Shown here piece after piece: positions 3,364 through 35,564 of a DNA stretch of 46,277 nt. Numbering within the stretch: the first letter of the stretch is position 1; each line of letters opens with the position of its first letter. Source of the DNA: an uncultured Faecalicatena sp. (GTDB lineage Bacteria; Bacillota; Clostridia; Lachnospirales; Lachnospiraceae); contig CAOKHZ010000031.1 in NCBI GenBank assembly GCA_948468385.1, positions 1 to 46,277 on the forward strand, given 5' to 3'. Below the pieces are notes generated by a model, which had not been told where the DNA came from, did no database searches, and saw nothing but the letters and a program-made list of their open reading frames with translations. The position numbers were made by a program, and so were the translations under genes.

Positions 3364-3473
3364 CCCTCCTTACTATGAGCACTTAGTGACCGTATTTTGG
3401 TCACTTACGTGCGAATGTACTCCGCGCATCTTGGCGAGGTCTCCCACGAGCCTAGCTAAGCGGAGTTTCCTCA
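3364..3473 (-). repeat. Structured leader element, copy 1 (upstream of purM)
   Basis: Read toward purM, the order is: GGAA; stem 1 outer arm ACTCCGC; core CTAGGC...GCCAAG; arm GCGGAGT; conserved ACATTCGCAC; stem 2 AGTGACC/GGTCACT around a 7-base loop, flanked by GCAC/GTGC; then TCATAGTAAGGAGGG, which is the purM Shine-Dalgarno. It fills the purE-purM gap and begins at the purE stop codon. Related copies are at 13792-13896, 31154-31252 and 35454-35564. Function unknown. Arms that differ between copies but stay paired point to a folded RNA leader or a mobile palindromic unit. Confidence 0.85.
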
Positions 3474-3974
3474 TTAATATGCCTCGTATCCCGTCTCCTG
3501 CAACCGCGCGTCCTTCGCCTGCACGGCCTCCTTCATCTCCACCGTGTAATCTTTGAGCTTTGCAAGCACTTTTTCGTCGGACACGGCCAAAATCCGCGCC
3601 GCCAAAATCGCCGCGTTCATCCCGCCGTCAATGGCCACCGTCGCAACCGGAATTCCCGGCGGCATCTGCATGATCGAGTACACCGCGTCCATGCCGTCCA
3701 ACTTGCTGCCGGAAAGCGGAACACCTACCACCGGCAGCGGGAAAAGTGCCGCGCACATGCCCGGCAAATGCGCCGCCATGCCCGCTCCCGCGATAATCAC
3801 CTTGATTCCTTTTTCCTCCGCCGCCTTCGCCCACTCAAAGAACACGTCCGGTTCCCGGTGTGCGGAGATGATGTGCATCTCATACTCGATTCCCAACTTT
3901 TCCAACATCTTCGCGGCCTTGCTCATCACCTTTAAATCCGAGTCGCTGCCCATCACGATTCCTACTTTTGCCAT
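3474..3974 (-). CDS. purE: N5-carboxyaminoimidazole ribonucleotide mutase, class I
   Basis: 166 residues, the standard class I length. It converts N5-CAIR to CAIR in purine synthesis. Motifs are the VGIVMGSDSDL phosphate loop, MHIISAHREPD, the AGAGMAAHLPGM loop and VVGVPLSG. It starts at MAKVGIVMG (ATG 3972-3974) with AGGTGGAG upstream; the longer reading frame carries an arginine-rich extension without a ribosome site. It follows the M29-like gene after 41 bp and precedes purM. No purK is visible in the window. Confidence 0.97.
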   Translation of the reverse strand: MAKVGIVMGSDSDLKVMSKAAKMLEKLGIEYEMHIISAHREPDVFFEWAKAAEEKGIKVIIAGAGMAAHLPGMCAALFPLPVVGVPLSGSKLDGMDAVYSIMQMPPGIPVATVAIDGGMNAAILAARILAVSDEKVLAKLKDYTVEMKEAVQAKDARLQETGYEAY

Positions 3975-4015
3975 TCGAAACTCCACCTTTCTTTTTCTTC
4001 CACGCGCCCTTTGCG

Positions 4016-6091
4016 TCATGCATTTTCCTCTTCAAACGCCTCGTTCAACATTTCCGTCCCTGGAAGCACGAACCTTCCATCCTTCAATAGTATAATCGCT
4101 TTTCCTTCTTTTGTCACTACACTTATTTCCTCTAATTCCTCATATGGTATCGTAATATCCGTATGGCACTGGAAATACGCCTTGGAAACGTCTTCCTTTC
4201 GCAAAATGGATACCTCGTTGTCCCTCGCCACGATTTCCTTGCCGTTTGGATTATAAACCTTGACATCCTCCGCCCAGCTGTAGCAAGTGTCACCCACCGC
4301 AAAATGCGGCCCGGTCTTCTCCGCAATCAGAATCGGCAACTTGTCCTCGATGCCATATTTTCTGCCGACCACGTAGGCCGTCGTATTCGTCCCGATGGCA
4401 AACTCGCCGATTGGCAGCGTATCATGACGATGCAACACGTTGTCATAAATATATTTTCGATTGTCTTCCTCCTTTTCAAAATTTGCACAAGTATAATCAC
4501 GAATCATGCCATCCCCGAACGTGAGCTTCAAATCACGGTACTGTAATTCGCGAAGGTACACCTTGCTCACATGAAGCACGCCATTCGTCCCTAAAAGCAC
4601 CGGGGATGTAAATACCTCGCCCACCGGGATGTTGACATCCGCCACGCAATTTTCAAAAATGGTTTCCTTGTCCGGGTCATTTAAGTGATACAATTGTATC
4701 GTCAAATCCGTCTCGTTCTTGCCTTTCCCCAGCACCCGCACGTACACGCCCTGATCAAGCGCGTCAATCAACGCCTGCTGCACCTTTTCATAGCGGACCG
4801 CATCCAACGTGTTAATGCGAATCACGTCGTCAAAGATTTCCTTATAACGTTCGCCAATCTCCGGCACCGGGTAGGCGACAATCGTAAAACTACGCTCCTC
4901 GCCCCTGATATACTGATTCGTAATCTGCCCCGACTTGCCCTCATACTGCACGGCAAGCTCCTGCTGCACCACGTTATAGCTTAAGGCCTCCACCTTTGCT
5001 TCCGGCGAAAACGGTTTCTCCCCAAACACTTCCATCACGGCCGGTCCGGCAAGCCGGGCCGCCTGCCCCTTGTTCTTCTCGTAAACGTTTTTCATGACGT
5101 CAAGTTTGCGTTCCACGTAACGTTTGTCCAAGAACAACGCCTGATCCATCCGGTGGTCGTACTCATATTGTTTGTTGGCAATCGCCCCGTAATAACCGAC
5201 CTTCGCCTGCTCCCGCTTCGTAATGACACTCGTCGCCGCCCGGACGATGACCGGCTTCAAGCCCATTTTTTCAAAATTTTCCACCGCCTTTTTAATCACC
5301 CGCTCAAACCCCAGGCAATACCGCACGTCCACGACGGATTTTTTCGACAAATCCTTGCCCGTATTGATAAACCCTTGGCGATACCCTTCCGTGTACACGT
5401 CCGCCATTTTTTGAACCGTCTCCTCGGAAAGGGTTCCCAGATGCCTGGCGGTACCGATTTCGTTTTCCGTGACAAACTCACCAGAACGGTAAAGATAACG
5501 CAAATCATCCAAATCCGCATTTTCAAGCCATTTTACGGCCGTGCATTTCTCCGGATACAGCTGCTCCTCGATGCGGTCGGCGAAAAACACGTCGCAATAA
5601 TCGCTGGCATACCAATAAAAAATGTCTTTCAGCGCCTGGTATTCGGGGAGCTCCCCTTCAAAGCAGTTGTACATTTCAATCAGCAGTTCGCCCAATATCG
5701 TCAGGTATCCTGCACGCCCCTCAAACGCGTAGGGAATCGCGCAACGAAGTTCGGCATAGAGCGCGCACAAAATCTGTCCGTACTCCCCTCCCAGCAAGGC
5801 CTTTGCATAAGACGGGTTCGCATAACTCGTCCCATAATTTTCCGGTAAAACGTCCTCATATAATTTGTAGTTTTGCTCTTGCATCCGCGCCAAGTCAAAC
5901 CGCTGCCACGACCCGTCCGCAATTTGCGCGCGCACCGCCTCCGTCTCCAAGAAAAATCCCGCCATCTGCCGGAAATAAGACCGGAACGGCTCTGGCACCG
6001 TTTCCTCCGTCTGCATCGTCCTGACACGCTCCAGGCATAGCTGGTGCCGCTGCAAATAGCCATCCTGCCACTCGTCTTGCATCGTTTCCAT
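4016..6091 (-). CDS. M29-like aminopeptidase with long N-terminal extension
   Basis: 691 residues, well above the roughly 410 of classical M29 aminopeptidases. The C-terminal part resembles M29: KGKNETDLTIQLYHL, then NIPVGEVFTSPV containing the glutamate that usually binds metal, LPIGEFAIGTNT with a second glutamate, and TGPHFAVGDTC with a metal-type histidine. Not every classical ligand can be placed by eye, so peptidase activity is inferred. The first 320 or so residues are a helical domain I do not recognise. The start is ATG 6089-6091, with GGAG 7 bases upstream. It lies directly before purE and is possibly cotranscribed with the purine genes. Confidence 0.7.
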   Translation of the reverse strand: METMQDEWQDGYLQRHQLCLERVRTMQTEETVPEPFRSYFRQMAGFFLETEAVRAQIADGSWQRFDLARMQEQNYKLYEDVLPENYGTSYANPSYAKALLGGEYGQILCALYAELRCAIPYAFEGRAGYLTILGELLIEMYNCFEGELPEYQALKDIFYWYASDYCDVFFADRIEEQLYPEKCTAVKWLENADLDDLRYLYRSGEFVTENEIGTARHLGTLSEETVQKMADVYTEGYRQGFINTGKDLSKKSVVDVRYCLGFERVIKKAVENFEKMGLKPVIVRAATSVITKREQAKVGYYGAIANKQYEYDHRMDQALFLDKRYVERKLDVMKNVYEKNKGQAARLAGPAVMEVFGEKPFSPEAKVEALSYNVVQQELAVQYEGKSGQITNQYIRGEERSFTIVAYPVPEIGERYKEIFDDVIRINTLDAVRYEKVQQALIDALDQGVYVRVLGKGKNETDLTIQLYHLNDPDKETIFENCVADVNIPVGEVFTSPVLLGTNGVLHVSKVYLRELQYRDLKLTFGDGMIRDYTCANFEKEEDNRKYIYDNVLHRHDTLPIGEFAIGTNTTAYVVGRKYGIEDKLPILIAEKTGPHFAVGDTCYSWAEDVKVYNPNGKEIVARDNEVSILRKEDVSKAYFQCHTDITIPYEELEEISVVTKEGKAIILLKDGRFVLPGTEMLNEAFEEENA

Positions 6092-6104
6092 CCTTCCTCT
6101 CCTT

Positions 6105-6479
6105 TTACAAGCATCCAATAATGAAAATGACAACCAAAAAAAGCAGAATCACGATATTTGCCGTGATTCCAACCTTGCAATTCACATAATTCTTGTCCCG
6201 TTCGCGAAAGCCGTCCATCGCCGCACGCATTCCCCCAAACGCAAGCAGAACGGCCACGCCGCCCAGGCCGCCGGTAAAACGTGCGCCATTCTTTCCAAGC
6301 CAAAACGCCACCATCACCGCCGCCGCGAAAACGATCAGTGAGGCGACCGCAAAATAGCATGAGCACGCACCCATGTGGGAATGTGTAAAAACGGTCCTCC
6401 GACTGGCGGACACCCTGTCCCTTCTAAAATTCCTTTCCCGTTTACGCCTTGCCTTAACGCCGCTTCCTTCGCCCATCAT
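6105..6479 (-). CDS. Small membrane protein, function unknown
   Basis: 124 residues. It has a very basic N-terminus (KARRKRERNFRRDR), a hydrophobic segment around residues 41-62, a glycine/alanine-rich segment around 70-85 and a final hydrophobic helix (ITANIVILLFLVVIFIIG), so about three membrane spans. It may belong to the DUF6142-like proteins of Lachnospiraceae, but that is a guess from topology. AAGGAG lies 5 bases before the ATG. The first 26 bases overlap the 3' end of the VanZ-like gene, so translation is probably coupled. Confidence 0.7.
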   Translation of the reverse strand: MMGEGSGVKARRKRERNFRRDRVSASRRTVFTHSHMGACSCYFAVASLIVFAAAVMVAFWLGKNGARFTGGLGGVAVLLAFGGMRAAMDGFRERDKNYVNCKVGITANIVILLFLVVIFIIGCL

Positions 6480-6927
6480 GTCTTCTCCTTATCCCATTAC
6501 ATATCAAAAAGAGGATGTACCCCAACGCGCCCCCGATTGTGTTCAAAAGCAGGTCATCCACGTCGCAGCTCCCGACGCGCGTCACCAATTGGAACAATTC
6601 CACCCCCAGGCTCAGGGAGAAACTGAAAAAAACGGTCTTAAAAAATCCCCTATTCACGCTTGCCACGGCGATAAAGAACCCGAACGGCATGAAAATCAAT
6701 ATATTTCCAAATAAATTGGCAAATACCGCAAAGGCTCCCAGTTCCTCCCGGTATTCGATAAAACGTCGTATTTCCTTGAACAATTCCAAATTGTACCGGT
6801 ATTCGTCCGACACCCCGGTACGCCCGTACCACTCGGCAAAGCATAAAAAATAAACCAGAAAAATAATGTAGGCCAAAAATAATACTTTCCCGAGTGCGCG
6901 GTATTTCTTTATTCTTTTTTGACTCAA
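6454..6927 (-). CDS. VanZ-family membrane protein
   Basis: 157 residues with four hydrophobic segments. VanZ signatures are NLFGNILIFMPFGF and the strongly conserved VELFQLVTRVGSCDVDDLLLNT with IGG following. VanZ proteins are linked to low-level teicoplanin resistance in one case, but the general function is unknown and nothing here indicates a resistance cluster. The start is a TTG codon (6925-6927), because the only nearby ATG upstream is out of frame; GAGGAA lies 8 bases before it. Confidence 0.88.
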   Translation of the reverse strand: MSQKRIKKYRALGKVLFLAYIIFLVYFLCFAEWYGRTGVSDEYRYNLELFKEIRRFIEYREELGAFAVFANLFGNILIFMPFGFFIAVASVNRGFFKTVFFSFSLSLGVELFQLVTRVGSCDVDDLLLNTIGGALGYILFLICNGIRRRHDGRRKRR

Positions 6928-6948
6928 ACCATTGTTCCTCGATTCGCC

Positions 6949-7098
6949 TTAAAATGTAATGCCGTGCCTGTCCTTCAAAAGCCTTGCCCCATTCACGATG
7001 GTAATGACGCCCGATGCCAGTCCCGCGACAATCATGATAATTCCCAGCGTGATGTTCATCACGCTGGAGGACGTCATCGTCTTATATGCCTTTTCCAT
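6949..7098 (-). CDS. 49-residue single-pass membrane peptide
   Basis: A short gene with a good ribosome site (AGGAG, 9 bases before ATG 7096-7098) and a clean stop. The peptide starts MEKAYKTMTSSSVMN, followed by one hydrophobic helix (ITLGIIMIVAGLASGVITIV) and a basic tail RLLKDRHGITF. The positive-outside pattern and lone span resemble small membrane-modulator peptides. It sits 21 bp before the VanZ-like gene in the same direction and probably shares its transcript. No function can be assigned. Confidence 0.72.
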   Translation of the reverse strand: MEKAYKTMTSSSVMNITLGIIMIVAGLASGVITIVNGARLLKDRHGITF

Positions 7099-7229
7099 GT
7101 TTAAAACTCCTTTCCGTATTCATATCAGTTATTTTCACAGTTCGCCTTGTCTCGCCAGACGCGCTCATGCCATACGCCGCGTGTCATTTTCCATCCACGC
7201 CAAGCCCTTGCAACACGCGCCCCGCTTTG

Positions 7230-7910
7230 TCACCCACGCACGCCATACGTCTCGTAATACGCGTCAATTGCCGCCTTTTGCTTGTCATCAATTATGATTT
7301 CCCCTTTGTACGGCTTGTTATACAGATATTCCGTCACTTCCGCCATCGACACGATGGCGTTCGCCGGGAAGCCATACGTCTCCGTGATTTCCTCAAGGGC
7401 GCTCACTTTTCCGCCCTTGCCGACCTCCATGCGGTTTAGGGACACCATCAGCCCCTTTATCTCCACGTCCGCTTGTGCCTTGATGATCGGAAACGTCTCT
7501 TCAATGGACTTGCCGGAAGTCGTCACGTCCTCGATGATGACGACGCGGTCACCGTCCTTTAACTTGCTTCCCAGCAAAATCCCCGTGTCCCCGTGATCCT
7601 TGACTTCTTTGCGGTTCGAGCAATAGCGAACGTCCTTCCCGTACAATTCACTGATGGCCATCGTCGTGGCCACGCTTAGTGGAATCCCCTTGTACGCCGG
7701 CCCGAACAGCACGTCGAACTCCAGCCCATAATTGTCATGGATGGCCTTCGCGTAATACTCGCCCAACCGACGTAGCTGCGTGCCCGTCACGTACGCGCCC
7801 GCGTTCATGAAAAACGGGGACTTGCGCCCGCTCTTTAACGTGAACTCGCCGAACTTCAAGACACCGCTCTCCACCATGAACCCGATAAATTCCTGCTTAT
7901 AACTCTCCAT
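7230..7910 (-). CDS. pyrE: Orotate phosphoribosyltransferase
   Basis: 226 residues. It makes orotidine 5'-phosphate from orotate and PRPP in pyrimidine synthesis. The PRPP-binding signature VVIIEDVTTSGKS is intact, as are FGPAYKGIPL and the KSGRKSPFFMNAG substrate region. Start MESYKQEF (ATG 7908-7910) has GAGGTG 6 bases upstream; a GTG three codons earlier is part of that ribosome site. The gap 7099-7229 to the next gene shows no gene or clear promoter. Confidence 0.95.
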   Translation of the reverse strand: MESYKQEFIGFMVESGVLKFGEFTLKSGRKSPFFMNAGAYVTGTQLRRLGEYYAKAIHDNYGLEFDVLFGPAYKGIPLSVATTMAISELYGKDVRYCSNRKEVKDHGDTGILLGSKLKDGDRVVIIEDVTTSGKSIEETFPIIKAQADVEIKGLMVSLNRMEVGKGGKVSALEEITETYGFPANAIVSMAEVTEYLYNKPYKGEIIIDDKQKAAIDAYYETYGVRG

Positions 7911-7915
7911 AGTAA

Positions 7916-8562
7916 TCACCTCTTCTTTATTATCTCGTCAATTATTGATTGCCCCTCCATTAAGGCCTTCCCTTCCAGTATATCCATATTTTCTTCTCGC
8001 TGCGCTATGGACCTCATCAAATCTCCCAACGTGTCACAATCCCCAGCTAACGAACTTAAAACCGAAGACGTTTTCTTTAACAATGCCTCCTCGGCAACAT
8101 CGGAGTACTCTTTTTTGTACAATAATTTATGGTTTATCTCACTCCATCCCTCAATTTCACTTGGGGTTTTTCACAGAAATTCTTTTTATATCTTGAAGTA
8201 ATTGCATTATGCAATGACAAATAATCACTTTTAAAAACATATAAAGCCCTTATCCCAATAATGTCCGTTATCTCGATCAAATACGTCTCTTTATTAAATA
8301 CGATATTCGTGTCCCCATATTCCACGGCTTTCCTAATAACCTTTTCTATAAGGTGTTCTACATCCTTTATCCGAAACCGCACCGAATGGACATCCGTCAG
8401 ATTACCAATCTCTTCAACATACTCTGAGGCAATTTTCTTAAACGTCCCGACCTTTGAATCATAGTCACACTCGATATCCTCCAACACGTCCCATGACAAT
8501 CCCGATTGATAAAACAACTCTTGATTATGATACTTTTTTAAAAATTCCTTCCGATTAATCAT
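7916..8562 (-). pseudogene. RelA/SpoT-domain gene, broken by internal deletion and frameshift
   Basis: The first 142 codons look like the N-terminal half of a small (p)ppGpp synthetase-like protein: RFRIKDVEHLIEKVIRK, then ITDIIGIRALYVF, then CEKPQVKLRDG, where relatives read EKPIAYIREG. The frame then hits TAA at 8134. A second frame resumes at once with GWSEINHKLLYKK and a helical tail down to 7916, matching the GWSEIDH part of relatives. The roughly 40-50 residues normally between these, including the YRSIHY and EIQVRT catalytic motifs, are missing. It is therefore an inactivated synthetase. It is AT-rich compared with its neighbours. Its ATG overlaps the stop of the next gene upstream. 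Confidence 0.82.
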
Positions 8563-9100
8563 TTTTTAAAGTACTCCTACTTCCATTGGCAACAAAAAAG
8601 CTACAAATTGCCATTTCCAAGGATTGTGCCGTAAAAATTCTGAATTTGAAATTATAAAACCATAAATTGGCCATTTCCAACAATGCTTGTTTCTGAATAA
8701 CGTCCCTATGTGAGCAATGCCGCTTTAATTTGGCCACCAAATTATTCACGATAAAAAGTTCATTTATATATAAATCCATATCTTGTTCCAGATCTGAAAT
8801 CAATTGAATCGGCTGACGACGTAAAAACCAATAAGCGCTATATGCATATATTTTGTTTAAATTGGCATGGTCTATCTCATGAAATTCTTTCATCCTAATC
8901 ATGTCCGTAAAATAATCACACACCGCATACCCCAAACGTCTGCTGTTAATTTGAACGCAATCTGTCAAGCCTTTTTTCTCAATAAACTTCTTGGCATCCA
9001 AATACCAAACTCCGAAACGCTCTTGCAAGTCTTCCATCGTATAATAATCCAGAATAAAACCATATTCCATTCTACCCTCTTGATTTTCTTTTGTCTCCAT
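8555..9100 (-). CDS. Hypothetical protein upstream of the RelA/SpoT remnant
   Basis: 181 residues with no signal peptide or membrane span. The sequence is helical and aromatic-rich, for example YWFLRRQPIQLISDLEQ and LWFYNFKFRIFTAQ. I do not recognise the family. The start METKENQEG has AGGAG 8 bases upstream; an ATG 18 bases earlier lies before that site. Its last 8 bases overlap the start of the RelA/SpoT-domain gene, so the pair once formed a coupled unit and may have been a regulator/synthetase pair. AT-rich, probably acquired. A strong terminator lies just upstream, so the transcript source is unclear. Confidence 0.65.
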   Translation of the reverse strand: METKENQEGRMEYGFILDYYTMEDLQERFGVWYLDAKKFIEKKGLTDCVQINSRRLGYAVCDYFTDMIRMKEFHEIDHANLNKIYAYSAYWFLRRQPIQLISDLEQDMDLYINELFIVNNLVAKLKRHCSHRDVIQKQALLEMANLWFYNFKFRIFTAQSLEMAICSFFVANGSRSTLKND

Positions 9101-9133
9101 CCAACAATCTCCTAACATTTATAACGCATATCA

Positions 9134-9161
9134 CAAAAAAAGTCTGACTAGCAGTCAGACT
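9134..9161 (-). terminator. Rho-independent terminator after the 70-residue gene
   Basis: On the minus strand a perfect 9-bp stem (AGTCTGACT/AGTCAGACT) with a 3-base loop is followed by seven T residues. It begins 8 bases past the stop codon at 9170. With the promoter at 9427-9455 it defines a single-gene transcription unit. Confidence 0.92.
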
Positions 9162-9169
9162 CACATCCA

Positions 9170-9382
9170 TCAATTCAAATTCAAAAAGTCTTGTGAATCA
9201 ACATCATCCAGATATTCTTCAAACGCTTTCTGATCGTCCAATAAACCATTTTCTCTATAATTAGGTCCTTTATTCTCTGATTTATCTTTTTTATACTGAT
9301 TTGACAGAAAATCCTTCTTAAAACTCTCCATCTCGCGAAGCGTTTCCTTATCGAATCCGTACTGCTGAAACTGATTCCCCAT
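9170..9382 (-). CDS. Small hydrophilic protein of unknown function (70 aa)
   Basis: A 70-residue charged protein starting MGNQFQQYGFDKETLREME and ending DVDSQDFLNLN, with a lysine/glutamate-rich middle and an acidic tail. No cysteine, membrane span or recognised domain. AGAGGT lies 6 bases before the ATG. It has its own promoter (-35 TTTACA, 17 bp, -10 TAAGAT) and its own terminator, so it is probably really expressed. It sits at the ppdK-facing edge of the AT-rich insert. Confidence 0.68.
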   Translation of the reverse strand: MGNQFQQYGFDKETLREMESFKKDFLSNQYKKDKSENKGPNYRENGLLDDQKAFEEYLDDVDSQDFLNLN

Positions 9383-9426
9383 ACTTTTACCTCTTCTCGT
9401 CTTTCTCCAACAATATCAGCGTAGTA

Positions 9427-9455
9427 ATCTTAACATAAAAATCCATTTTTGTAAA
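9427..9455 (-). promoter_or_regulatory. Sigma-A promoter for the 70-residue gene
   Basis: The -35 TTTACA (9450-9455) and -10 TAAGAT (9427-9432) on the minus strand are spaced by exactly 17 bp, 45 bp before the start codon. Confidence 0.75.
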
Positions 9456-9553
9456 TAAGTATATTCGTTTTTACATTGACTTTCGTTACTTTTCAGTTAC
9501 TATTCACGTGGTGTAGGAAACTTCCCCTCCTTTTTAAATATACTATAAGGAAC

Positions 9554-9602
9554 AATAGACGAAAGGACTCCGAAGGAATACTCCTCCGAAGCCCTGTCTA
9601 TT
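9554..9602 (-). terminator. Long hairpin downstream of ppdK
   Basis: The ends AATAGAC and GTCTATT pair perfectly and enclose a second imperfect stem (CTTCGGA... with ...TCCTTCGG). It lies 29 bases after the ppdK stop. No T-run follows directly, so it is either a non-canonical terminator or an mRNA-stabilising 3' end. Confidence 0.5.
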
Positions 9603-9630
9603 CATGCAGCGATAACTATATCGCGCTCTC

Positions 9631-13791: not shown

Positions 13792-13896
13792 GTTACTATA
13801 AGCACTTAGTGACCGTATTTTGGTCACTTATGTGCGAATGTAGTTGCCCGCAACTTGGCGAGGTTTTTTCGAGCCTAGTGTCTTGTAACTTCCTTT
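13792..13896 (-). repeat. Structured leader element, copy 2 (upstream of M18 aminopeptidase gene)
   Basis: Read toward the peptidase gene: GGAAGTTAC, core CTAGGC...GCCAAG, AACTACATTCGCAC, then AGTGACC/GGTCACT around a 7-base loop flanked by GCAC/GTGC, then TTATAGTAACG. The outer arm pairs AGTT with AACT, whereas copies 1 and 3 pair ACT with AGT. The 3' end lacks the AAGGAGG of the other copies; a separate ribosome site lies 30 bases further on. Confidence 0.82.
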
Positions 13897-13932: not shown

Positions 13933-14062
13933 AATCTATTTGAAAATATCATTAAGGAAGTTCTTTTCGCTAAATTCGACCTTCGGTCTCATTAATCTCA
14001 AAGAACGACCTCGCACTAAGTTCAAGCTTCGCCTATGACTCGCTTTCACTAAGTTGCTTTCG

Positions 14063-15454
14063 TCAGAATCTAAATTTGTCCTCGAAGTATGCCTTCAAAT
14101 CTTCGATTTTCACACGTTCCTGCGCCATTGTATCTCTGTCGCGCACCGTCACCGCGCCGTCCGTCTCCGATTCAAAATCATACGTCACGCAGAATGGCGT
14201 GCCAATCTCGTCCTGACGGCGATAACGCTTTCCGATATTCCCCCTGTCGTCATATTCACAATTATAATATTTTGACAACTCCGCGTAAATCTTCTGCGCG
14301 CCCTCTCCAAGCTTCTTCGACAACGGCAGCACGCCGATTTTTACCGGAGCCAAGGCCGGGTGGAAATGAAGCACCGTGCGGACGTCGCCGCCCTCAAGCT
14401 CTTCCTCGTCATACGCGCTGCAGAGGAACGCCAACACCATGCGATCCGCTCCCAGCGAAGGTTCAATCACGTACGGAATGTATTTTTCATTTTTCTCATC
14501 GTCAAAGTATGTCAAATCTTGCTTGGACACTTCCATGTGCTGCGTCAGGTCATAGTTCGTCCGGTCCGCGATGCCCCACAGCTCGCCCCAGCCAAACGGG
14601 AAGAGGAATTCCACGTCCGTCGTCGCCTTGCTGTAGAAGGAAAGCTCCTCCGGATCATGGTCACGGTAACGCACCTCGTCCGCCTTAAGTCCCAAGGAAC
14701 TCAGCCAGTCCAGACAGAACTGCTTCCAGTATGCGAACCACTCCAGATCCGTGTCCGGCTCGCAGAAAAATTCCAGTTCCATCTGCTCGAACTCCCGCGT
14801 GCGGAACGTAAAGTTACCCGGCGTAATCTCGTTACGGAAAGACTTTCCAATCTGGGCGATTCCAAACGGAATCTTCTTGCGGGAAGTCCGCTGCACGTTC
14901 TTAAAGTTCACAAAAATTCCTTGCGCCGTCTCAGGACGAAGATACACGGTGTTTTTCGCGTCTTCGGTCACGCCCTGAAACGTCTTGAACATCAGGTTGA
15001 ACTGGCGGATATCGGTAAAATTATGCTTGCCGCAAGACGGGCAGGCAATCTGCTTCTCCTCGATGAACGCCGTCATCTCCTCCTGCGACCACGCGTCAAC
15101 GCTGCCTTCCAGCCCGACACCGTTTTCCGCGCAGTAATCCTCAATCAATTTGTCGGCCCGAAACCGCTCATGGCACTCCTTGCAGTCCATCAGCGGATCG
15201 GAAAAACCACCCAAGTGACCGCTCGCCACCCATGTCTGTGGATTCATCAAAATCGCGCAGTCCACGCCGACGTTGTACGGCGACTCTTGTACGAATTTCT
15301 GCCACCAGGCCTTTTTCACATTGTTCTTCAGCTCCACGCCAAGATTTCCGTAATCCCATGTATTAGCCAAACCGCCGTAAATCTCGGAACCGGGGTATAC
15401 GAATCCTCTCGATTTTGCCAAGGCCACGATTTTGTCCATTGTCTTCTCTGCCAT
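14063..15454 (-). CDS. glyS: Glycyl-tRNA synthetase, alpha2 type
   Basis: 463 residues, the single-chain alpha2 class II enzyme (also called GlyQS/GRS1-type). Motifs are [18 protein letters not shown] at the N-terminus, zinc-type cysteine pairs ([15 protein letters not shown]), [16 protein letters not shown], the motif-2-like [34 protein letters not shown] and a C-terminal anticodon-binding domain. The promoter is at 15508-15536; the leader of about 50 bases is too short for a T-box, so tRNA-dependent attenuation is unlikely. Confidence 0.97.
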
Positions 15455-26315: not shown

Positions 26316-27251
26316 TCATCCAATCTCCTGCTCCGCGAACAGCTTGTCCACCGCCTCTTCATAAGCCTTGCACCGCTGCGCCTTGTTTATCTTCTTCGCA
26401 TATTTTTCATAATCGGTAAAAATCGGAGCCAAAAAGCTCCATAATTCTTTCATTTTAAACAAAATCGTTTTCTCGCCGGACAATATCTCCGCATATCGTC
26501 CATACAGCCGGTCGTGGAACGCACGCAGCGTTCGCTTGTCCAATGTCTGCCTGGTGCGAATCTGCCGTGCCAGCCCCGGATTCTTTAAAAGGCCGCGCCC
26601 CAGCATCACGCGTTCCACGCTTGGAAACGCCTCCGTCACCCGCTCATAATCCTCCACCGAAAAAATGTCCCCGTTGTAGCAAACCGGATTGCGGCTATTT
26701 TCCACCGCCCCCGCAAACGCATCCAAACGGGGGCGATTTGCATAAAAATCCTTCTGCACCCGCGGATGGATAATCAGCTCTTTCAACGGATATTTATTAT
26801 AAATTTCCAACAACCGTTCAAATTCTTCCGGCCTCTCCCTGCCAATCCTCGTCTTTATGGATACAGCCACGTCCACGTTCGCGAACACTTCGTACAAAAA
26901 ATGATCCAGTTCTTCCGGATACGACAAAAAACCGGCTCCCCGTCCCTTCGAAATCACCGTTTTGGACGGACACCCGAGATTGAAATTTACCTCTTTATAG
27001 CCATACTGCTTCAATTTGTGAACCGTGCGCAGAAAATCCTCGCTGGATTTGGTCAGAATCTGCGGCACGGCATACATTCCCACGTTATTTTCCGGCAAAA
27101 CGTCCTGCCGCTCACGAGAGCTTAAATGCCCCTTCTGGTTCGGCTTGATAAATGGAATAAAATACTTGTCCACGTTTCCAAAGCATTCACAAAAGGTACT
27201 GCGAAACACGTGCCCCGTTATCCCCTCCAACGGGGCCATATACAACTCCAT
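26316..27251 (-). CDS. tRNA-dihydrouridine synthase family protein
   Basis: 311 residues. FMN-dependent TIM barrel that reduces uridines in the tRNA D-loop. It begins MELYMAPLEGITGHVFR (the AP-G-T-FR FMN motif), with EVNFNLGCPSKTVISKGRGAGF containing the active-site Cys, SIKTRIG, ELIIHPRVQKDFY and VMLGRGLLKNPGL phosphate-binding residues. Which U position it modifies is unclear. SD GAGGAGAAGAGG directly precedes the ATG. Confidence 0.92.
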   Translation of the reverse strand: MELYMAPLEGITGHVFRSTFCECFGNVDKYFIPFIKPNQKGHLSSRERQDVLPENNVGMYAVPQILTKSSEDFLRTVHKLKQYGYKEVNFNLGCPSKTVISKGRGAGFLSYPEELDHFLYEVFANVDVAVSIKTRIGRERPEEFERLLEIYNKYPLKELIIHPRVQKDFYANRPRLDAFAGAVENSRNPVCYNGDIFSVEDYERVTEAFPSVERVMLGRGLLKNPGLARQIRTRQTLDKRTLRAFHDRLYGRYAEILSGEKTILFKMKELWSFLAPIFTDYEKYAKKINKAQRCKAYEEAVDKLFAEQEIG

Positions 27252-27284
27252 CCTCTTCTCCTCTTCATGATGATTTGTGCCAAA

Positions 27285-27833
27285 TTATCCCAAAAGCCGT
27301 CCCCGCAGCTTGCCCCATAACTCCCTCTGCACGTAATCATAGGCGTAATCATAGAAAAACAAGCCTACTTGCCCTGCCAAAAGCGCGACGGCCAAAAATC
27401 CCATGTCAAGCCGCCGTCCAAATAAAAACTCCTGCATCAACAAAACCGCCGGAACGTACAAGACGTTAAATACCACGTATTTCACCACCCAGAAAAGCCT
27501 CTTGTACTTTTCCGCCGTCTCCTCGGTGACCGTCCTTCCCATCCACTCCCACGCGATCTCTATCAGTAAAATGTAGAGCCCCATCGCCGCATAGGTCATC
27601 ACGTACATCTTGTTCGGAGCCACGACAAGCCCCAAAAGCACGCCCGCAAGATAAAACGCCGCGCCAATTCGCACGTCGAACTCCCGCTTTATGATTCCCA
27701 CAAAATACGAAGCCGCCGCCAACAGAAATAGCGTATTCGTCTCCAAAACGCCCCCCGCCACGATGCATACTTCCGTCAAGGCCAACATCAAACCGGAGAC
27801 CGCCATTTTTTTCGCATTTATATGCATGAGCAC
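27285..27833 (-). CDS. Polytopic membrane protein, possibly an ECF-type S component
   Basis: 182 residues with about six hydrophobic segments. It starts at a GTG (27831-27833) with GGAGG 6 bases upstream; the following reads [19 protein letters not shown]. That [16 protein letters not shown] opening and the small-residue-rich helices resemble substrate-binding subunits of ECF transporters, but no family is certain. The first 16 bases overlap the DnaJ-like gene, so the pair is translationally coupled. Confidence 0.68.
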
Positions 27834-28567
27834 AAATCGCCTCCCATACATTCGCACAGCGTGTCCGCACACCATAAGTCGCAACAAATATTGCCCGTCC
27901 CGCAAGTTTCATTGTGACCATTGTACCCTCTTCCGTATGGTGCCGTCTGATACCGCTGCCCGTTCCACTGCAATTGGTTCAGAAACTGCCGGTACTGAGG
28001 ATTGTTCGGCTCCATGGAAACCGCCTGCGCCGCCTGGTCACGCGCCATGATGTTGTTGCCAATGTTGGCGTTTGCCACCGCACTCATGTAATACCACTGC
28101 GCGTTACGTCCGGGAATGCTGTTTAACACGTTTAGCGCCTCCCGATACTGCCTGGCATTCATATAAGAATAAACCGACTTCATCCGCGGATCTTCATTCC
28201 CGAAGGAATCGTTCTGGTAACTGCCGTCATACTGGTACGCCCCCTGCCCGGAACTTCCCGAAGAACTGCCGGATCCGGTGCCATAATCATACGTCGAGCT
28301 GCCTGAAGACGAACCACCACTGCCGTAACTATATGTGGAACTTCCAGAGGAAGAGCCGTAAGACGCGCTGCCCTCGCGTTCCTTCATAATCTCGTCATAC
28401 GCCTCCTGCACTTCCTTGAACCGCTCCTCCGCCAAATCGGCCAGAGGATTGTCCACATTAGCATCCGGGTGATACTTTCTGCTCAATTCACGATAGGCGC
28501 GTTTCACTTCGTCATCCGACGCATCACGCGATATTCTCAATACATAATAAGGATTTTTACTTGACAT
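27818..28567 (-). CDS. DnaJ-domain protein with Ser/Gly/Tyr linker and Cys-rich tail
   Basis: 249 residues. A J domain at residues 6-70 with the HPD motif at 33-35 (SRKYHPDAN), a low-complexity Ser-Gly-Tyr linker at about 75-125, a helical TPR-like region ([33 protein letters not shown]) and a tail with eight cysteines in the last 30 residues ([20 protein letters not shown]...). J domains stimulate Hsp70 ATPase. The tail probably binds metal or forms a cluster. The promoter is at 28603-28631. Confidence 0.9.
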
Positions 28568-28602
28568 AGTACTCCCCTTTTCTATCCGTAAGTTTTATCT
28601 CC

Positions 28603-28631
28603 ATCATAAACGAAATATCTAAAAAAGTCCA
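28603..28631 (-). promoter_or_regulatory. Sigma-A promoter of the DnaJ-like gene
   Basis: Minus-strand TGGACT (28626-28631), 17 bp, TATGAT (28603-28608), 36 bp before the start codon. Confidence 0.65.
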
Positions 28632-28723
28632 TACGCATTTATAAAGATTTCATGAAAAAACGGGGTGAACGCAACGCTCCAATCCAATCACAAAGCGATT
28701 TTTGCATGGATTGACACTCGCAG

Positions 28724-29647
28724 CTATGAAGGTACCGAATAGTTGCGAAATTTCATCCATACCCCGGCGTACAAAATATTACGCAATATGTCGACATCCC
28801 ACAAGCATGGCAATCGCTCAAAGGCCGCGCTGCATTCCGCCATCATCATGCACAACATGTCATGGCAACGTTTCCTATACACATTCTCACACGCATTCTC
28901 ACGCGCGTCCCCAGACTCTTGCTTCTGATTCGCGTTCTCACCCTCAACCGCCTCGTTCCTTCCCCCCTGATGCCCGGCTTCCTGTGCGCTGCTTTCATAT
29001 AAAGTCCGCAACGGATTATAGCACCCTTTCTGCAAATCCGCCTCCAAATCCTCGTAGGCATCCATGATGTAAATGAATTTCCCCAGATAAAATCCGATTT
29101 CCCGCATCGTCTTTTCCCACGCGTCCTCCCGGTACACGAGCATCTCCGCCATCAGCCGCCCGAAGCACCCGGCAGGCTCGTCAACATTCTGACTGTCCGC
29201 CGCCTCGTATGCCGCCAATGCTTTTAACTCGCCTTCTATCACCTTGCTCTGCCGGGGATAGTTCTTGGCGATTTTTTCTGCCTTTTGCCTGAGGGCCACG
29301 CTGCCGACCAGACCGCTTACTTTCTTTTCATCCTGCCAGTCGTCCTTCATATGGTAGTATGACAGCAAAATGTTCATGTCCGCACAATAGTCCGCAATCT
29401 CGCTTTGTAGCATTTTCTGTTTTTTCACGGGATGCGTCTTGCAACGGCGCGAGACTTCTTCCGTCTCAATTTCATACAGCGACGTCAATAAAATTACGGC
29501 AAACGTCATGTCATAAGACAACGTCAATTGCCCGACATGTCCGTGCCGTCTCCGCAAAGACTGGCACAGTCCGCAATAATACGCGCGGTACTTACGCCAG
29601 TCTTTCATTTTCAATTCCGGTTCACAAATCGTAACGTAACCAAACAT
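28724..29647 (-). CDS. DUF5685-like protein
   Basis: 307 residues starting MFGYVTICEPELKMKDW, then YRAYYCGLCQSLRRRHG, the typical opening of DUF5685 proteins with the CGLC pair. The rest is helical, with LGKFIYIMDAYEDLEADL resembling an Asp-rich prenyl-transferase-like helix. Residues 230-260 are a hydrophilic insert. Function unknown. In related genomes this family often sits next to a DnaJ-like gene and a membrane protein, as here. Its ATG is 2 bp past the glpK stop, with AGAGG inside glpK. A CAATCCA/TGGATTG hairpin lies in the 28640-28723 gap. Confidence 0.82.
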   Translation of the reverse strand: MFGYVTICEPELKMKDWRKYRAYYCGLCQSLRRRHGHVGQLTLSYDMTFAVILLTSLYEIETEEVSRRCKTHPVKKQKMLQSEIADYCADMNILLSYYHMKDDWQDEKKVSGLVGSVALRQKAEKIAKNYPRQSKVIEGELKALAAYEAADSQNVDEPAGCFGRLMAEMLVYREDAWEKTMREIGFYLGKFIYIMDAYEDLEADLQKGCYNPLRTLYESSAQEAGHQGGRNEAVEGENANQKQESGDARENACENVYRKRCHDMLCMMMAECSAAFERLPCLWDVDILRNILYAGVWMKFRNYSVPS

Positions 29648-29649
29648 CG

Positions 29650-31263
<1,614 letters not shown>

Positions 31264-31265
31264 TC

Positions 31266-31294
31266 ATTGTAACAAATCGCACTGAAAATGCCAA
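31266..31294 (-). promoter_or_regulatory. Sigma-A promoter of glpK
   Basis: Minus-strand TTGGCA (31289-31294), 17 bp, TACAAT (31266-31271). Transcription would start near 31259, just before leader element copy 3, giving a leader of about 113 bases made almost wholly of the element. Confidence 0.82.
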
Positions 31295-31404
31295 GGTTGA
31301 TTTTCGACCTTTTTCGAAGATATCCAATCTTTTTCCGACCCCGTCATCCGCCGAGCCGGCCAATCAGAAAAACTGATGCAACCTCAAACCAATTTCATCT
31401 CCAT

Positions 31405-31959
31405 CTATTTGCTCAAAAACCGTTCCGATTGCCTGATAAAATCGGATACGTTCAAACATGGATTCTCCAGGGTCTGATGGATATACAAACCATCTGAAAG
31501 AAGAAGCAGAAGCCACGCTAAAAAGTCGGAAGGGATCGAATCCGTACGTTCCCCGATTTTTTTCGATATAATGTCGGCAAATTCACCGTAGCGCCGCAAA
31601 AGCTTCTCCCGAATCTGCTCGTCCCCCATCATGGCATCATAAAACAAGTGAAGCCGCATGCTCGCCGTGGAAACGTCACGCTCCAACACGTATTTTATCA
31701 GCCGGTGGAGGGAGGTATCCTTGGATTCGTCCTCCGTCCAGGCAATCAAGTCCTCATACTGTTCTTCCAAATACTTGTCCATAATGTCAAAAAGAAGCTC
31801 GTTTTTATTCTTATAATGATAATAAAGCGTCCCCTTCGAGATTCCGGCACGCCCCGCGATTTCCGCCAGAGAAATATCGGACAATACTTTGTGCTTTAAC
31901 AGCTCTTCCGCCGCATTCAAAATCAATTCCTTCACGTTGTCTTTCCTTGGTGCCGCCAT
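31405..31959 (-). CDS. TetR-family transcriptional regulator
   Basis: 184 residues. The N-terminal DNA-binding domain shows ISLAEIAGRAGISKGTLYYHYKNKNELL, the classic TetR helix-turn-helix. The C-terminal ligand/dimer domain is helical. It is divergent from the plus-strand operon starting at 32113, with a shared promoter region, so it probably controls that operon and itself. SD GGAGGG precedes the ATG. The effector is unknown; a polyol phosphate or lipid product would fit the neighbours. Confidence 0.92.
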   Translation of the reverse strand: MAAPRKDNVKELILNAAEELLKHKVLSDISLAEIAGRAGISKGTLYYHYKNKNELLFDIMDKYLEEQYEDLIAWTEDESKDTSLHRLIKYVLERDVSTASMRLHLFYDAMMGDEQIREKLLRRYGEFADIISKKIGERTDSIPSDFLAWLLLLLSDGLYIHQTLENPCLNVSDFIRQSERFLSK

Positions 31960-31988
31960 AAGCTCCCCCTCCTTGATTCACTGGTAGT

Positions 31989-32017
31989 AGTATAGCATCT
32001 TTCCTATGGTTTGTCGA
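31989..32017 (-). promoter_or_regulatory. Promoter of the TetR gene
   Basis: Minus-strand TCGACA (32012-32017), 17 bp, TATACT (31989-31994), 29 bp before the start codon. A TTGT-N7-ACAA inverted pair overlaps the -35, a possible operator. Confidence 0.65.
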
Positions 32018-32034
32018 GAAAACAATGATATGTA

Positions 32035-32063
32035 TTGACTTTGGCAACTTCATCTGGTAAGAT
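32035..32063 (+). promoter_or_regulatory. Promoter of operon B
   Basis: TTGACT (32035-32040), 17 bp, TAAGAT (32058-32063), 49 bp before the GlpA-like start. It is 17 bp from the -35 of the divergent TetR promoter, so one bound repressor could cover both. Confidence 0.85.
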
Positions 32064-32112
32064 ACACTTATAGAGTCGGTCGCGCGGGCGACTCATGAAA
32101 GGAAGTGAAGAA

Positions 32113-33837
32113 ATGGATACGGAAATCCTGGAAAAAAAGCTGAATCGGAAGTTAAAAAAGCAATTCGGCGAAACGGTAAACGTGACCATTGAAGGAAAAA
32201 TCATTCGCGTGTCCGGACATTTGCCCGACTGGGACACCGTCGTCAAGGCCTGCAGCATGTGCGTGACGAAGCGGCCGGGTTTTCACGTGGTCAATGACCT
32301 GGTGGCGGAGGGCGTACATATCCCGCCCATGAGAATTCCGCCGATTGAAGACAAGGCGTTGGACGGAAAAGAGCCTGACGTATTGATTATCGGCGGCGGC
32401 ATCTCCGGATGCAGCATTGCCAGAGAATTGACACGCTGGAAGCTGGACGTGCTACTCGTCGACAAGGAGGCGGACCTGGCGTTGCAGGCATCTGGAAGAA
32501 ATGACGGGGAAGTGCACCCCGGCGTGGATTTGGGGCGCGGGACACTAAAGCAAAAATACGTCGTGCGGGGCAACCGCATGTTTGGCAAGCTTTGCGAAGA
32601 ACTGGACGTTCCCTTTCGAAGATGCGGGCAATATGTCGGCTTTACCGACAAATCGGCATATTCTTTCATCCGCATGTATGCATGGCAGCGGCGATATATT
32701 TGCAAGGTGACCGACACGCGGCTTATCTCGGGAGACGACCTGCACCGAAGGGAGCCAAACCTGAATCCTGATTTTAAATTCGCCCTCTACAACCCAAGTG
32801 CCGGCTGTGTGTGCCCATACGGCCTGACCATCGCCTACGGGGAAAATGCCGTGCAAAACGGTGCGACCGTGAGCCTGAACACGGCCGTGCTGGGGATGGA
32901 AGTGATTGACGGCACGATTCGAAGCGTCCAGACGAACCGGGGAACCATTTATCCGCGTCTGGTCATCAACGCGGCAGGAGTGTTTGCGGAGGATGTTGCC
33001 GCCATGGCGGGCGACCGTTTTTTCTCAATCCATCCGCGAAAGGGAACCAATTCCATTCTCGACAAGAAAACCGGAAGCCTTGTAAAAAGCATTTCTTCCA
33101 TCAAGAAGCTGAAAAACAACGCGGCGCACACGAAAGGCGGAGGGATACTCCACACCGCCCACCACAATCTGCTCGTGGGGCCAAACGCCGTCGAAACCTA
33201 TGAGAAAGAAAACTTCGCGACGGAACAATCCAGCATTGACGCCGTATTTGAGAAGCAAAAGCTGACGGCCAAAAATCTTTCCGAAAGAGACATCATTACG
33301 TATTTTACCGGCGTGCGCCCGGCCACCTTCGAGGAAGATTTCGTGATAGAAAAAGGCCGGAAGACAAGGAACCTGATCCACTGCGCCGGGATTCAGTCAC
33401 CAGGACTGACCACCGCTCCCGCCGTCGCGATAGACATTGCAAAAATGGCGGTAAATGAATTGAAAAAACAGAAGGAGGTCAGCCGAAACAAAAACTTCAA
33501 TCCGCGAAGGAAAGGCATCCCGCAAGTACGAAATCTTTCGGAAGAAGAACGAAACCGCTTGATCCACGAGAATCCAGATTATGGAGTCATCATCTGCCGG
33601 TGCGAGGAAATCAGCAAGGGTGAAATCCTTGACGCGCTGAAATCCCCGATTCCGGTCACGACGGTAGACGGGGTCAAAAAACGTGTACGACCGGGGATGG
33701 GACGATGCCAAGGAGGCTTTTGCATGCCGTTAGTGACCAAAATCATCAGCGAAGATTTGCAGGTTCCGATCGAACAAGTGAAAAAATCCGGCGAAGATTC
33801 TGTAATCAGTTTCGGCAAGACGAAGGGGGTGAGATAA
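32113..33837 (+). CDS. GlpA-like dehydrogenase of operon B with N-terminal BON-like domain and C-terminal [2Fe-2S] domain
   Basis: 574 residues, about 95 longer than its paralogue at 24099-25538. The extra N-terminus (about 1-80) reads VNVTIEGKIIRVSGHLPDW with a later GFHVVNDLV, the pattern of a BON domain, a small fold often tied to lipid or phosphate binding. Then come the FAD motif VLIIGGGISGCSIAREL, GRNDGEVHPGVDLG, VINAAGVFAEDVA and IQSPGLTTAPAVA. The BFD-like cluster site is CRCEEISKGEI (about residues 495-497) and GMGRCQGGFC (about 531-536). Start ATG 32113 with AGGAAGTG. First gene of the TetR-divergent operon. Substrate unknown; glycerol-3-phosphate-like by family. Confidence 0.87.
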   Translation: MDTEILEKKLNRKLKKQFGETVNVTIEGKIIRVSGHLPDWDTVVKACSMCVTKRPGFHVVNDLVAEGVHIPPMRIPPIEDKALDGKEPDVLIIGGGISGCSIARELTRWKLDVLLVDKEADLALQASGRNDGEVHPGVDLGRGTLKQKYVVRGNRMFGKLCEELDVPFRRCGQYVGFTDKSAYSFIRMYAWQRRYICKVTDTRLISGDDLHRREPNLNPDFKFALYNPSAGCVCPYGLTIAYGENAVQNGATVSLNTAVLGMEVIDGTIRSVQTNRGTIYPRLVINAAGVFAEDVAAMAGDRFFSIHPRKGTNSILDKKTGSLVKSISSIKKLKNNAAHTKGGGILHTAHHNLLVGPNAVETYEKENFATEQSSIDAVFEKQKLTAKNLSERDIITYFTGVRPATFEEDFVIEKGRKTRNLIHCAGIQSPGLTTAPAVAIDIAKMAVNELKKQKEVSRNKNFNPRRKGIPQVRNLSEEERNRLIHENPDYGVIICRCEEISKGEILDALKSPIPVTTVDGVKKRVRPGMGRCQGGFCMPLVTKIISEDLQVPIEQVKKSGEDSVISFGKTKGVR

Positions 33838-35108
33838 TGCCAGACTATGACGTACTTGTGATTGGCGGAGGCCCCGCCGGACTTTCCGCGGCAATCTCGG
33901 CCAAAAAAGAAGGCTCCCGAGTGCTTCTCTTAGAGCGGGAAGAACGTCTGGGCGGCATTCTCAAGCAATGCATCCACGACGGGTTCGGACTTCTTCGATT
34001 CGGAGAAAAATTATCCGGCCCGGAATACGTGGAACGCTTCGAGGAGGAGTTTCATGAATTGCACATAGAATACGAGGTTTTGACATTCGTGACGGACATT
34101 CGAAAACAAGAAGGCGTATTTCTGATTACGGCGGTAAACCAAAAAGGGGTGCAAAACTATCAGACCCGAACCATCATACTTGCCACGGGATGCCGGGAAC
34201 GAACGGCGAAACAAGTATCCATACATGGCACAAGACCCGCCGGAGTCTTTACGGCAGGGACGGCGCAGCATTTCGTAAACCTTCTTGGAGAAATGCCGGC
34301 AAAAAAATGTGTCATCTTAGGAAGCGGGGACATTGGCCTGATTATGGCACGCCGCCTGACCCTGGAGGGGGCAAAAGTCGAGGGTGTCTACGAAGTGAAG
34401 CCGGAGCCGTCCGGGCTCACCAGAAACCTGGTACAATGTCTGGAAGATTACGGGATTCCGCTTTATTTATCCCACACCGTGACAAGGGTGTTTGGCGTCG
34501 GAAGGCTTACGGCAGTGGAAATCGCAAAAGTGGACGACGCGATGCGGCCGATTCCAGGAACGGAGCGGAAAGTGGAATGCGACACACTAATCTTGTCGGT
34601 CGGATTGATTCCCGAAAACGAGATGGCGGAAAGTCTGGGCGTTTCGCTGGACGCACACACAAAAGGCCCCGTCTGTGACAATCTGTTCATGACGGACGTG
34701 GACGGCGTGTTCTCATGCGGAAACGCGCTCCACGTCAACGACCTTGTGGACTATGTCTCGGAAAGCGGGGAACTGGCCGGAAAGGCGGCAGCCGGATTTC
34801 AAAAGACGTGGCGGACGAGAGGGCGAAGCGTGCCGCTTGATGCGGATGCCTCCTTGCAATACCTGGTTCCCCAGCGCCTGAACCTGGACTATGGAACGGA
34901 CAAGGTAGTCCTATATTTTCGAAACAAGGAGACGTTGCCGCAGGGAATCCTCCATATCGAAGCGGACGGAAAAACCGTATTTGAAAAAAAATACAGAAAT
35001 TTGAAACCACCGGAAATGGAACGCCTGGAGATGGATTTTGGGAAATTTCATCTGAACGGTGCTTCGAAAATACGCGTGTCCATTCGAAAAGGAGGCGATG
35101 CAAAATGA
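33837..35108 (+). CDS. NAD(P)/FAD-dependent oxidoreductase of operon B
   Basis: 423 residues, paralogous to 22762-24102. FAD motif VLVIGGGPAGLSAA, GGILKQCIHDGFGLLRF, ILATGCRERTAKQ, NAD(P) motif CVILGSGDIGLIMARRL and GVFSCGNALHVNDLVDY. Its start overlaps the preceding stop (TAATG), with AAGGGGGTGAG upstream. It presumably forms a complex with the GlpA-like and DUF1667 proteins. Confidence 0.9.
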   Translation: MPDYDVLVIGGGPAGLSAAISAKKEGSRVLLLEREERLGGILKQCIHDGFGLLRFGEKLSGPEYVERFEEEFHELHIEYEVLTFVTDIRKQEGVFLITAVNQKGVQNYQTRTIILATGCRERTAKQVSIHGTRPAGVFTAGTAQHFVNLLGEMPAKKCVILGSGDIGLIMARRLTLEGAKVEGVYEVKPEPSGLTRNLVQCLEDYGIPLYLSHTVTRVFGVGRLTAVEIAKVDDAMRPIPGTERKVECDTLILSVGLIPENEMAESLGVSLDAHTKGPVCDNLFMTDVDGVFSCGNALHVNDLVDYVSESGELAGKAAAGFQKTWRTRGRSVPLDADASLQYLVPQRLNLDYGTDKVVLYFRNKETLPQGILHIEADGKTVFEKKYRNLKPPEMERLEMDFGKFHLNGASKIRVSIRKGGDAK

Positions 35109-35476
35109 GGGAATTGACTTGTATTACCTGCCCGAACGGATGCCTGCTACAAGTGGATGAAACGGAAGGCGGAATTCGCGTGACCGGAAACGCCTGCCCC
35201 CGGGGCGAGACATTCGCGATTGCCGAACTGACGCACCCGATGCGGACGATTTGCAGCACGGCGCGCACCACGTATCCCGAAACACCGGTAGTACCCGTCC
35301 GGGTTTCGGGAGAAATCCCCAAAGAAAGAATTTTTGACGTAATGAAAGAAATAAACAACATCGTGCTTGACAGACGTGTCAAACGAGGTGACGTGCTGAT
35401 CCCGGACGTGCTGGGACTGGGCGTGGACGTCATCGTCACAAGTGACATATTAACAAGGAAGTTGTGCTGCCACTAG
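35105..35476 (+). CDS. DUF1667 protein of operon B
   Basis: 123 residues, paralogue of 22393-22761. Four cysteines in CITCPNGCLL and NACPRGETFA, then VPVRVSGEIPKERIFDVM. Start overlaps the upstream stop (ATGA). The last seven or so codons and the TAG stop lie inside leader element copy 4, so the element supplies the gene's end. Confidence 0.88.
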   Translation: MRELTCITCPNGCLLQVDETEGGIRVTGNACPRGETFAIAELTHPMRTICSTARTTYPETPVVPVRVSGEIPKERIFDVMKEINNIVLDRRVKRGDVLIPDVLGLGVDVIVTSDILTRKLCCH

Positions 35477-35564
35477 GCTCGAAACGACCTCGCCAAGTGA
35501 CCCACAACTACATTCACACGTAAGTGACCAGAGAACGGTCACTAAGTGTTCATGGTAAGGAGGG
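35454..35564 (+). repeat. Structured leader element, copy 4 (upstream of AGPS-like gene)
   Basis: GGAAGTTGTG pairs with CACAACT, enclosing core CTAGGC...GCCAAG; then ACATTCACAC, stem AGTGACC/GGTCACT with flank ACAC/GTGT, then TCATGGTAAGGAGGG, the ribosome site of the next gene. The ACAC/GTGT pair replaces GCAC/GTGC of copies 1 and 2 with pairing kept. It starts inside the 3' end of the DUF1667 gene. Confidence 0.85.

Follow-up and report, generated by a model that had tools for sequence, protein, structure and literature searches.

The 46,277-nucleotide (nt) stretch of DNA analyzed here, hereafter the window, is contig CAOKHZ010000031.1 of an uncultured Faecalicatena sp. (family Lachnospiraceae; GenBank assembly GCA_948468385.1, 94% complete). 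It carries four elements of about 100 bp, each with two covarying hairpins and each placed 5' of a gene in the sense orientation of that gene. An earlier reading of the letters alone (the sequence-only reading) had named these genes purM, an M18 aminopeptidase gene, glpK, and an AGPS-like gene, identities that Pfam domain matches 3' of copies 1 to 4 support: AIRS (purM), Peptidase_M18, FGGY kinase (glpK-like), and FAD_binding_4/FAD-oxidase_C (AGPS-like), respectively. Below, G000 is the genome of the window, G001 to G011 are other genomes of the same genus, and numbers beginning with L denote loci. The features, all four copies belonging to what we call type I, are as follows (a slash marks a junction):

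3371..3471, minus strand: copy 1, type I (AGGAAACTCCGC...CATAGTA), a two-hairpin element flanked by an AIRC (purE-like) gene and purM
3364..3370, minus strand: Shine-Dalgarno (SD) sequence of purM, AGGAGGG, directly after copy 1; the start codon lies 15 nt past the element end
13794..13894, minus strand: copy 2, type I, preceding the M18 aminopeptidase gene; joined at its 3' end as GTA/ACGATAA; also present in G008
31161..31248, minus strand: copy 3, type I, preceding the glpK-like gene; its hairpin B is shortened; missing in G001
31155..31160, minus strand: SD AGGAGG, directly after copy 3
35456..35557, plus strand: copy 4, type I, flanked by a DUF1667 gene and the AGPS-like gene; missing in G001
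35558..35563, plus strand: SD AGGAGG, directly after copy 4

Copies 1 and 4 are intercistronic, because each stands between two genes (AIRC/purM and DUF1667/oxidase). The DUF1667 gene (35105-35476, plus strand) seemingly has its stop codon supplied by copy 4, as the TAG of CTAGGC; in G001, where copy 4 is missing, its frame continues, by eye, beyond the next start codon.

Read in the sense of the gene, the element consists of AGGAA, hairpin A, hairpin B, and GTA, and is followed by AGGAGG. Hairpin A has variable outer arms (classes GTTAC/GTAAC or ACTCCGC/GCGGAGT) around a core, CTARGC-TCG..CCTC-GCYAAG, that includes an A.A mismatch and whose TCG..CCTC loop is conserved. Hairpin B has the form TAC-AT-TC-GCAC...GTGC-TC-AT-A-GTA, and its outer stem TAC/GTA changes in pairs, with TGC/GCA and TCC/GGA also occurring. 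On re-reading, the four copies lay where the sequence-only reading had placed them; the stems, core, and ends it quoted were correct, and the paired changes were present. Some of its details needed amendment. The segment it gave as conserved, ACATTCGCAC, reads ACATTCACAC in copy 4 and ACATTCGCAT in copy 3. The 3' end that it equated with the SD in three copies does adjoin one in copies 1, 3, and 4; after the junction of copy 2 an AGGAG follows about 25 nt beyond. Hairpin B has the GCAC/GTGC-type base described but is longer than stated, since the outer stem TAC-AT/AT-A-GTA also covaries.

Folding of the single sequences of copies 1 to 4 was better than that of shuffled sequences only in part (z of -3.0, -2.6, -0.4, and -1.6), and the case for structure therefore rests on alignments. 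RNAalifold found two-sided changes in 13 of 21 pairs among 19 copies. For larger pair counts, 105 copies were sorted into arm classes of 52 and 45, with a rest of 8; alignment A6 holds 46 copies and A7 holds 38, with the rest of 8 and 13 array neighbors or poor rows dropped. Scored on a structure hand-written from these same sequences, with related rows and orthologs included (for both of which the controls allow partly), 93.5% of cells are paired in A7 and 96.6% in A6, and two-sided changes occur in 16/29 and 17/26 pairs. The cells with such changes number 106 (A7) and 133 (A6) against shuffled means of 31 and 37, values that 0 of 500 shuffles reach in either alignment; sliding the partners by 1-3 columns leaves 2 to 11. 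The number of further pair types is no higher than in shuffles (498/500 shuffles as high in A7, 65/500 in A6). The compensatory changes first noticed in four copies are upheld on these two larger sets. G-U cells are few (14 of ~1153 paired cells in A7; 26 of ~1024 in A6, 12 of these in one column), a scarcity that DNA-level pairing would lead one to expect and that would fit DNA hairpins.

The core hairpin, searched as an exact pattern, matches 40 times in G000, against 0 for a reversed control pattern, and is present in 20 of 98 genomes (G000 included) and 9 of 83 genera. A covariance-model search of relatives, which the sequence-only reading had proposed, returned many matches: model R1, for which at most 150 candidates were scored per genome, so that counts are lower bounds, has at least 72 matches in G000, at least 121 in G008, at least 52 in G001, and 1 to 23 in each of nine other genomes of the genus. 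Across the Lachnospiraceae (120 genomes, one per genus, G000 among them), 20 genomes have an R1 match at E<=1e-4. A wider scan of contigs gave at least 117 stretches with the hairpin, mostly from Lachnospiraceae; by our own estimate several tens of chance matches are expected in a collection of such size, and the proteobacterial rows (L095, L119, L127, and L140) may be chance matches. Both tandem arrays and nested composite copies are present. The composites have one two-hairpin unit within hairpin B or the loop of another (L019, L066, L257, L002, and L193:13086) and recur at several loci, as though the composite itself were mobile. Two loci on viral contigs have one hairpin each, and core hairpins, mostly antisense, stand in ribosomal protein operon spacers of two genera (L059-L063; five genomes). 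Other palindromic insertions, of the GCATGCCTGCATG type, are found in G008 (L193 4780-5040, L192 10760-11060, and L193 16050-16280) and are absent from the window.

Orthologous sites occur both with and without the element among these genomes. Copy 4 is missing in G001, where the SD is intact and the flanks are 98% identical; copy 3 is also missing there, with flanks of 93% and 85% identity. Copy 1 is present in one of ten same-genus loci compared (G008), where a second, composite element follows in tandem, joined at the SD behind the first, and is missing in nine; the empty loci have 13-43 nt between the matched flanks in G011, G003, G005, G007, and G002; in G010, G006, G009, and G004, other sequence of 86-159 nt stands there. 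For 17 further insertions, the joined flanks were used as queries against five genomes and the orthologs were then read. Clean empty orthologs, with at most 13 nt between the flanks, exist for eight (L263, L274, L009, L252, L246, L302, L305, and L316), several of them in more than one genome (L252 in G001, G008, and G009; L246 in G001 and G008; L316 in G000 and G001). Two lack the element but have another spacer (L297, 36 and 52 nt; L317, 101 nt), two retain a remnant of it (L244 and L286), and two have a different element at the site (L291 and L273; G008 has a second L273-like locus without any element); the queries for L268, L281, and L253 had no orthologous match in the five genomes. Where two or three relatives all have an empty site, as at several of these loci, gain is favored over loss. 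Insertion polymorphism, proposed beforehand as the sign of a mobile palindrome, is therefore seen at many sites; the comparison is among species of a single genus, not strains.

For the position of the elements relative to genes, loci of G000, G001, and G008 supplied 120 near-full copies, of which 114 passed a filter for flanks, length, and duplicates and 91 are terminal in their array. An SD was scored when at least 5/6 letters of AGGAGG started at -1 to +9 nt from the element end and a start codon, opening a frame of at least 50 codons, followed after 3-13 nt. Such an SD, start codon, and open frame follow 73 of the 91 terminal copies, a count that is biased upward, because R1 holds SD columns and mainly its best matches were read, and in which orthologous copies of the three genomes are unmerged; the same test succeeds at 0/86 on the mirror side and strand and at 333/20000 random positions of the same loci. 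Consistent sense placement 5' of genes, as claimed for the four copies, is in this way upheld on a larger set. Among the 73, an SD offset of 0 accounts for 34 copies, and offsets of -1 and +1 for 15 each (64/73 within -1 to +1). Any start codon with an open frame 6-31 nt on was found for 81/91 copies, compared with 15/86 on the mirror side and 6873/20000 at random positions. Given the bias of R1 toward the SD, the test was repeated from the core hairpin alone, with 39 of the 40 matches in G000, in 26 arrays, 19 of which are type I by our own sorting. A sense SD and start within 135 nt follow 15 of these 19 arrays (the exceptions are L013, L025, L028, and L248), and none has them on the other strand. 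Two other sense matches (L004 and L016) depend on TTG starts and frames of 52-55 codons, and the six arrays with an SD and start on the other strand are all of types II and III.

We therefore consider it probable (about 0.82) that the four copies in the window belong, as type I, to a family of ~100-bp non-autonomous mobile DNA elements, each with two adjacent hairpins, that are joined to AGGAGG-type SDs in the sense of the gene. The description that suits them best is that of a REP/MITE-like (repetitive extragenic palindrome/miniature inverted-repeat transposable element) hairpin element that is non-autonomous and specific for SD sites. A trans-acting enzyme would recognize the hairpins in single-stranded DNA and join the element to AGGAGG-like targets, and insertion at an SD would yield the sense orientation observed. 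With the SD left complete beside the start codon, the insertion is tolerated, and both hairpins then form the end of a 5' leader or of an intercistronic spacer. Where a new copy lands on the SD already behind an older one, a tandem array would arise. Any effect on translation, for example by keeping the SD free of upstream structure, would be a by-product; judging from sequence, the elements are probably part of the leaders of these genes and not dedicated regulators of them.

Relatives of the element occur at other signals. One lies in the window itself:

13954..14062, minus strand: type III hairpin element, directly after the TGA stop codon that ends the class II tRNA synthetase-like gene at 14063-15454

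Type III elements begin CGAAAGCAACT and are repeated elsewhere in G000, G001, and G008 (63 places, of which 30 loci were read, orthologs unmerged), and many of them likewise follow stop codons. Among first copies, the stop codon of an open frame lies at most 12 nt upstream of GAAAGC in 16/26, against 957/20000 random positions; in 9 of the 16 it is exactly 2 nt away, and eight of these nine read TGA-CC. Type II elements have the same core on the other strand. Their upstream flank is TGGTATAAT, an extended -10 sequence, in 9 of 12 loci, a number that is no test, because the search pattern required TATAAT. In L026, L047, L004, and L029, the element directly follows TGGTATAAT or GGTATAG and the word is repeated at the far end; in L026, L047, and L029, the words that flank the element on either side are TATAAT or TATAG. 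At L026 in G000, TATAAT flanks the element on both sides; the corresponding site in G008 (L355) lacks the element and has the promoter TTGTAT-17-TATAAT, with ~50 nt of other sequence further on. In L029 the element follows the stop codon of what we take to be frr, within GGTATAG, which is repeated on both sides, so that type II targets a word in the DNA and not promoters in themselves. Two-hairpin copies from other genera of the Lachnospiraceae adjoin SDs (L391 and L409), tRNA 5' ends in tRNA-cluster spacers (L392, L395, L397, and L406), and 16S rRNA 5' ends (L404 and L414). All of these might belong to one hairpin superfamily of the Lachnospiraceae whose subfamilies target SDs (I), extended -10 sequences (II), positions after stop codons (III), and tRNA or 16S 5' ends, each time leaving the signal working, and whose mover would be an enzyme other than a Y1 transposase or a reverse transcriptase; we offer this as a tentative extension, somewhat more likely to be wrong than right in this full form.

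Several observations weigh against an SD-directed mobile element. Besides the upward bias and unmerged orthologs of the main count, 18/91 terminal copies fail the SD test, and in other genera the same model matches the non-SD sites just described, while most remaining rows there adjoin nothing recognized. For type I, a target-site duplication was not demonstrable: the 5' and 3' junctions agree no more than shuffled pairs do. The element ends are placed only to within a few nt, because empty sites differ by small indels, and some junctions are ambiguous at the level of single bases; sites compared in two genomes only leave loss indistinguishable from gain. Nor did the two enzyme domains searched for turn up in G000, which has no match to Y1_Tnp (PF01797), although at 94% completeness a copy could have been missed, and none to RVT_1, of which G008 has five and G001 two. 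Finally, the 45 listed clusters of open reading frames within 3 kb of elements, at a subset of loci, included no transposase look-alike, as judged by eye and not by Pfam; they resembled transporters, regulators, ribosomal proteins, and other housekeeping genes. No autonomous relative was noticed near the copies, again by eye and with no dedicated search made.

The alternative that fares best is that these are classical REP/REPIN sequences whose mobilizing RAYT (Y1 HUH) transposase G000 has lost or its assembly has missed. Short mismatched hairpins in many extragenic copies would suit this, and Y1_Tnp matches do occur in 33/61 genomes searched, with partial ones in G008 (three) and G001 (one). 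We nevertheless think it unlikely: the three genomes richest in copies are the one without a Y1 match and the two with partial ones, whereas G007, with 11 Y1 matches, has 7 elements. Hairpin A moreover starts at the presumed cut, which, by comparison with the architecture of IS608, would leave no room for a Y1-type guide. As candidate mobilizers, Y1_Tnp was rejected on its absence from G000 and on copy numbers that do not track Y1 counts, and reverse transcriptase on the absence of RVT_1 from G000, though it is present in G008 and G001. Both searches of G000 were made on an assembly that is 94% complete, and they covered these two enzyme domains.

The elements could also be cis-regulatory RNAs, two-hairpin leaders through which a bound ligand or protein, or occlusion of the SD, controls the translation of a regulon, and which selection has spread to many genes. 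Strong covariation, the close abutment of the SD, and sense orientation are all what such leaders would show, and by eye the conserved CCTC loop could pair with the GAGG of the SD. The sequence-only reading had left a choice between RNA leader and mobile palindrome; covariation and sense placement 5' of genes bear out its leader observations, but presence or absence between close relatives at many genes speaks against a gene-specific leader, as do downstream genes that are unrelated and have no stable tie to orthologous genes of one pathway. Tandem and nested copies, the scarcity of G-U pairs, the same hairpin core at -10 boxes, after stop codons, and at tRNA and rRNA ends, and the lack of an Rfam family point the same way and make a regulatory RNA improbable. 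Insertion polymorphism, unrelated genes, and tandem and nested copies together indicate that "leader" describes a position and that the origin is a mobile hairpin. Least probable is unspecific insertion followed by purifying selection against nearly all copies not beside an SD, since, although copies inside genes would be lost and bacterial genomes are dense, intergenic survivors should spread out and occur in both orientations, whereas the SD offset is within one nt in most SD-positive terminal copies and the mirror-side controls, for SDs and for start codons of any kind, are empty or low.

If the copies are indeed SD-directed mobile elements, then an element that leaves the ribosome-binding signal complete can spread through operons nearly free of cost, and dozens of genes thereby gain a structured leader, which would show how mobile DNA seeds 5' leaders. 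There is also a warning in this: a mobile DNA hairpin can show both covariation and 5' placement, on which claims of a new riboregulator usually rest. The missing enzyme itself makes a definite target.

A search of the window with Rfam 15 (gathering score and E<=10) gave four weak matches, none at the four elements, and to that extent the statement that they match no named family holds. The literature searched, with most subscription journals outside its reach, contained no description of these elements or of an SD insertion preference. With the cis-regulatory leaders in Rfam they share a structured 5' leader position and covariation, but they are mobile, stand before unrelated genes, and have no Rfam match. 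REP and REPIN sequences, with their RAYT transposases, are short, multicopy, extragenic, mismatched palindromes that form tandem clusters and have no coding capacity. The present elements are likewise short, multicopy, extragenic, clustered, and non-coding, with a mismatched hairpin; unlike REPs, they have two unlike hairpins in fixed order, a preference for SDs, a fixed orientation, and no RAYT/Y1 in G000. The foot of a REP hairpin is a conserved GTAG/GGAG tetranucleotide; the 5' end of the present elements is mostly AGGA, directly before the stem. Among MITE-like repeats, one review describes RUP, ERIC/IRU, and YPAL as short and non-autonomous, and YPAL (168 bp, with internal inverted repeats) as recently mobile on the evidence of filled and empty sites (PMC2229807); BOX repeats appear to belong in the same comparison. 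The present elements resemble this group in being short, non-autonomous repeats, judged, like YPAL, by filled and empty sites, and differ in being joined to SDs, in sequence and hosts, and in having no obvious terminal inverted repeats or TA duplication (no formal test was made). In placement, the nearest parallel may be with the TAACTGA direct repeats of Beggiatoaceae, for which the cited passages show no mobility (PMC4679880): these repeats are mostly forward and directly upstream of start codons, much as the present elements stand in forward orientation directly 5' of the start codons of their genes.
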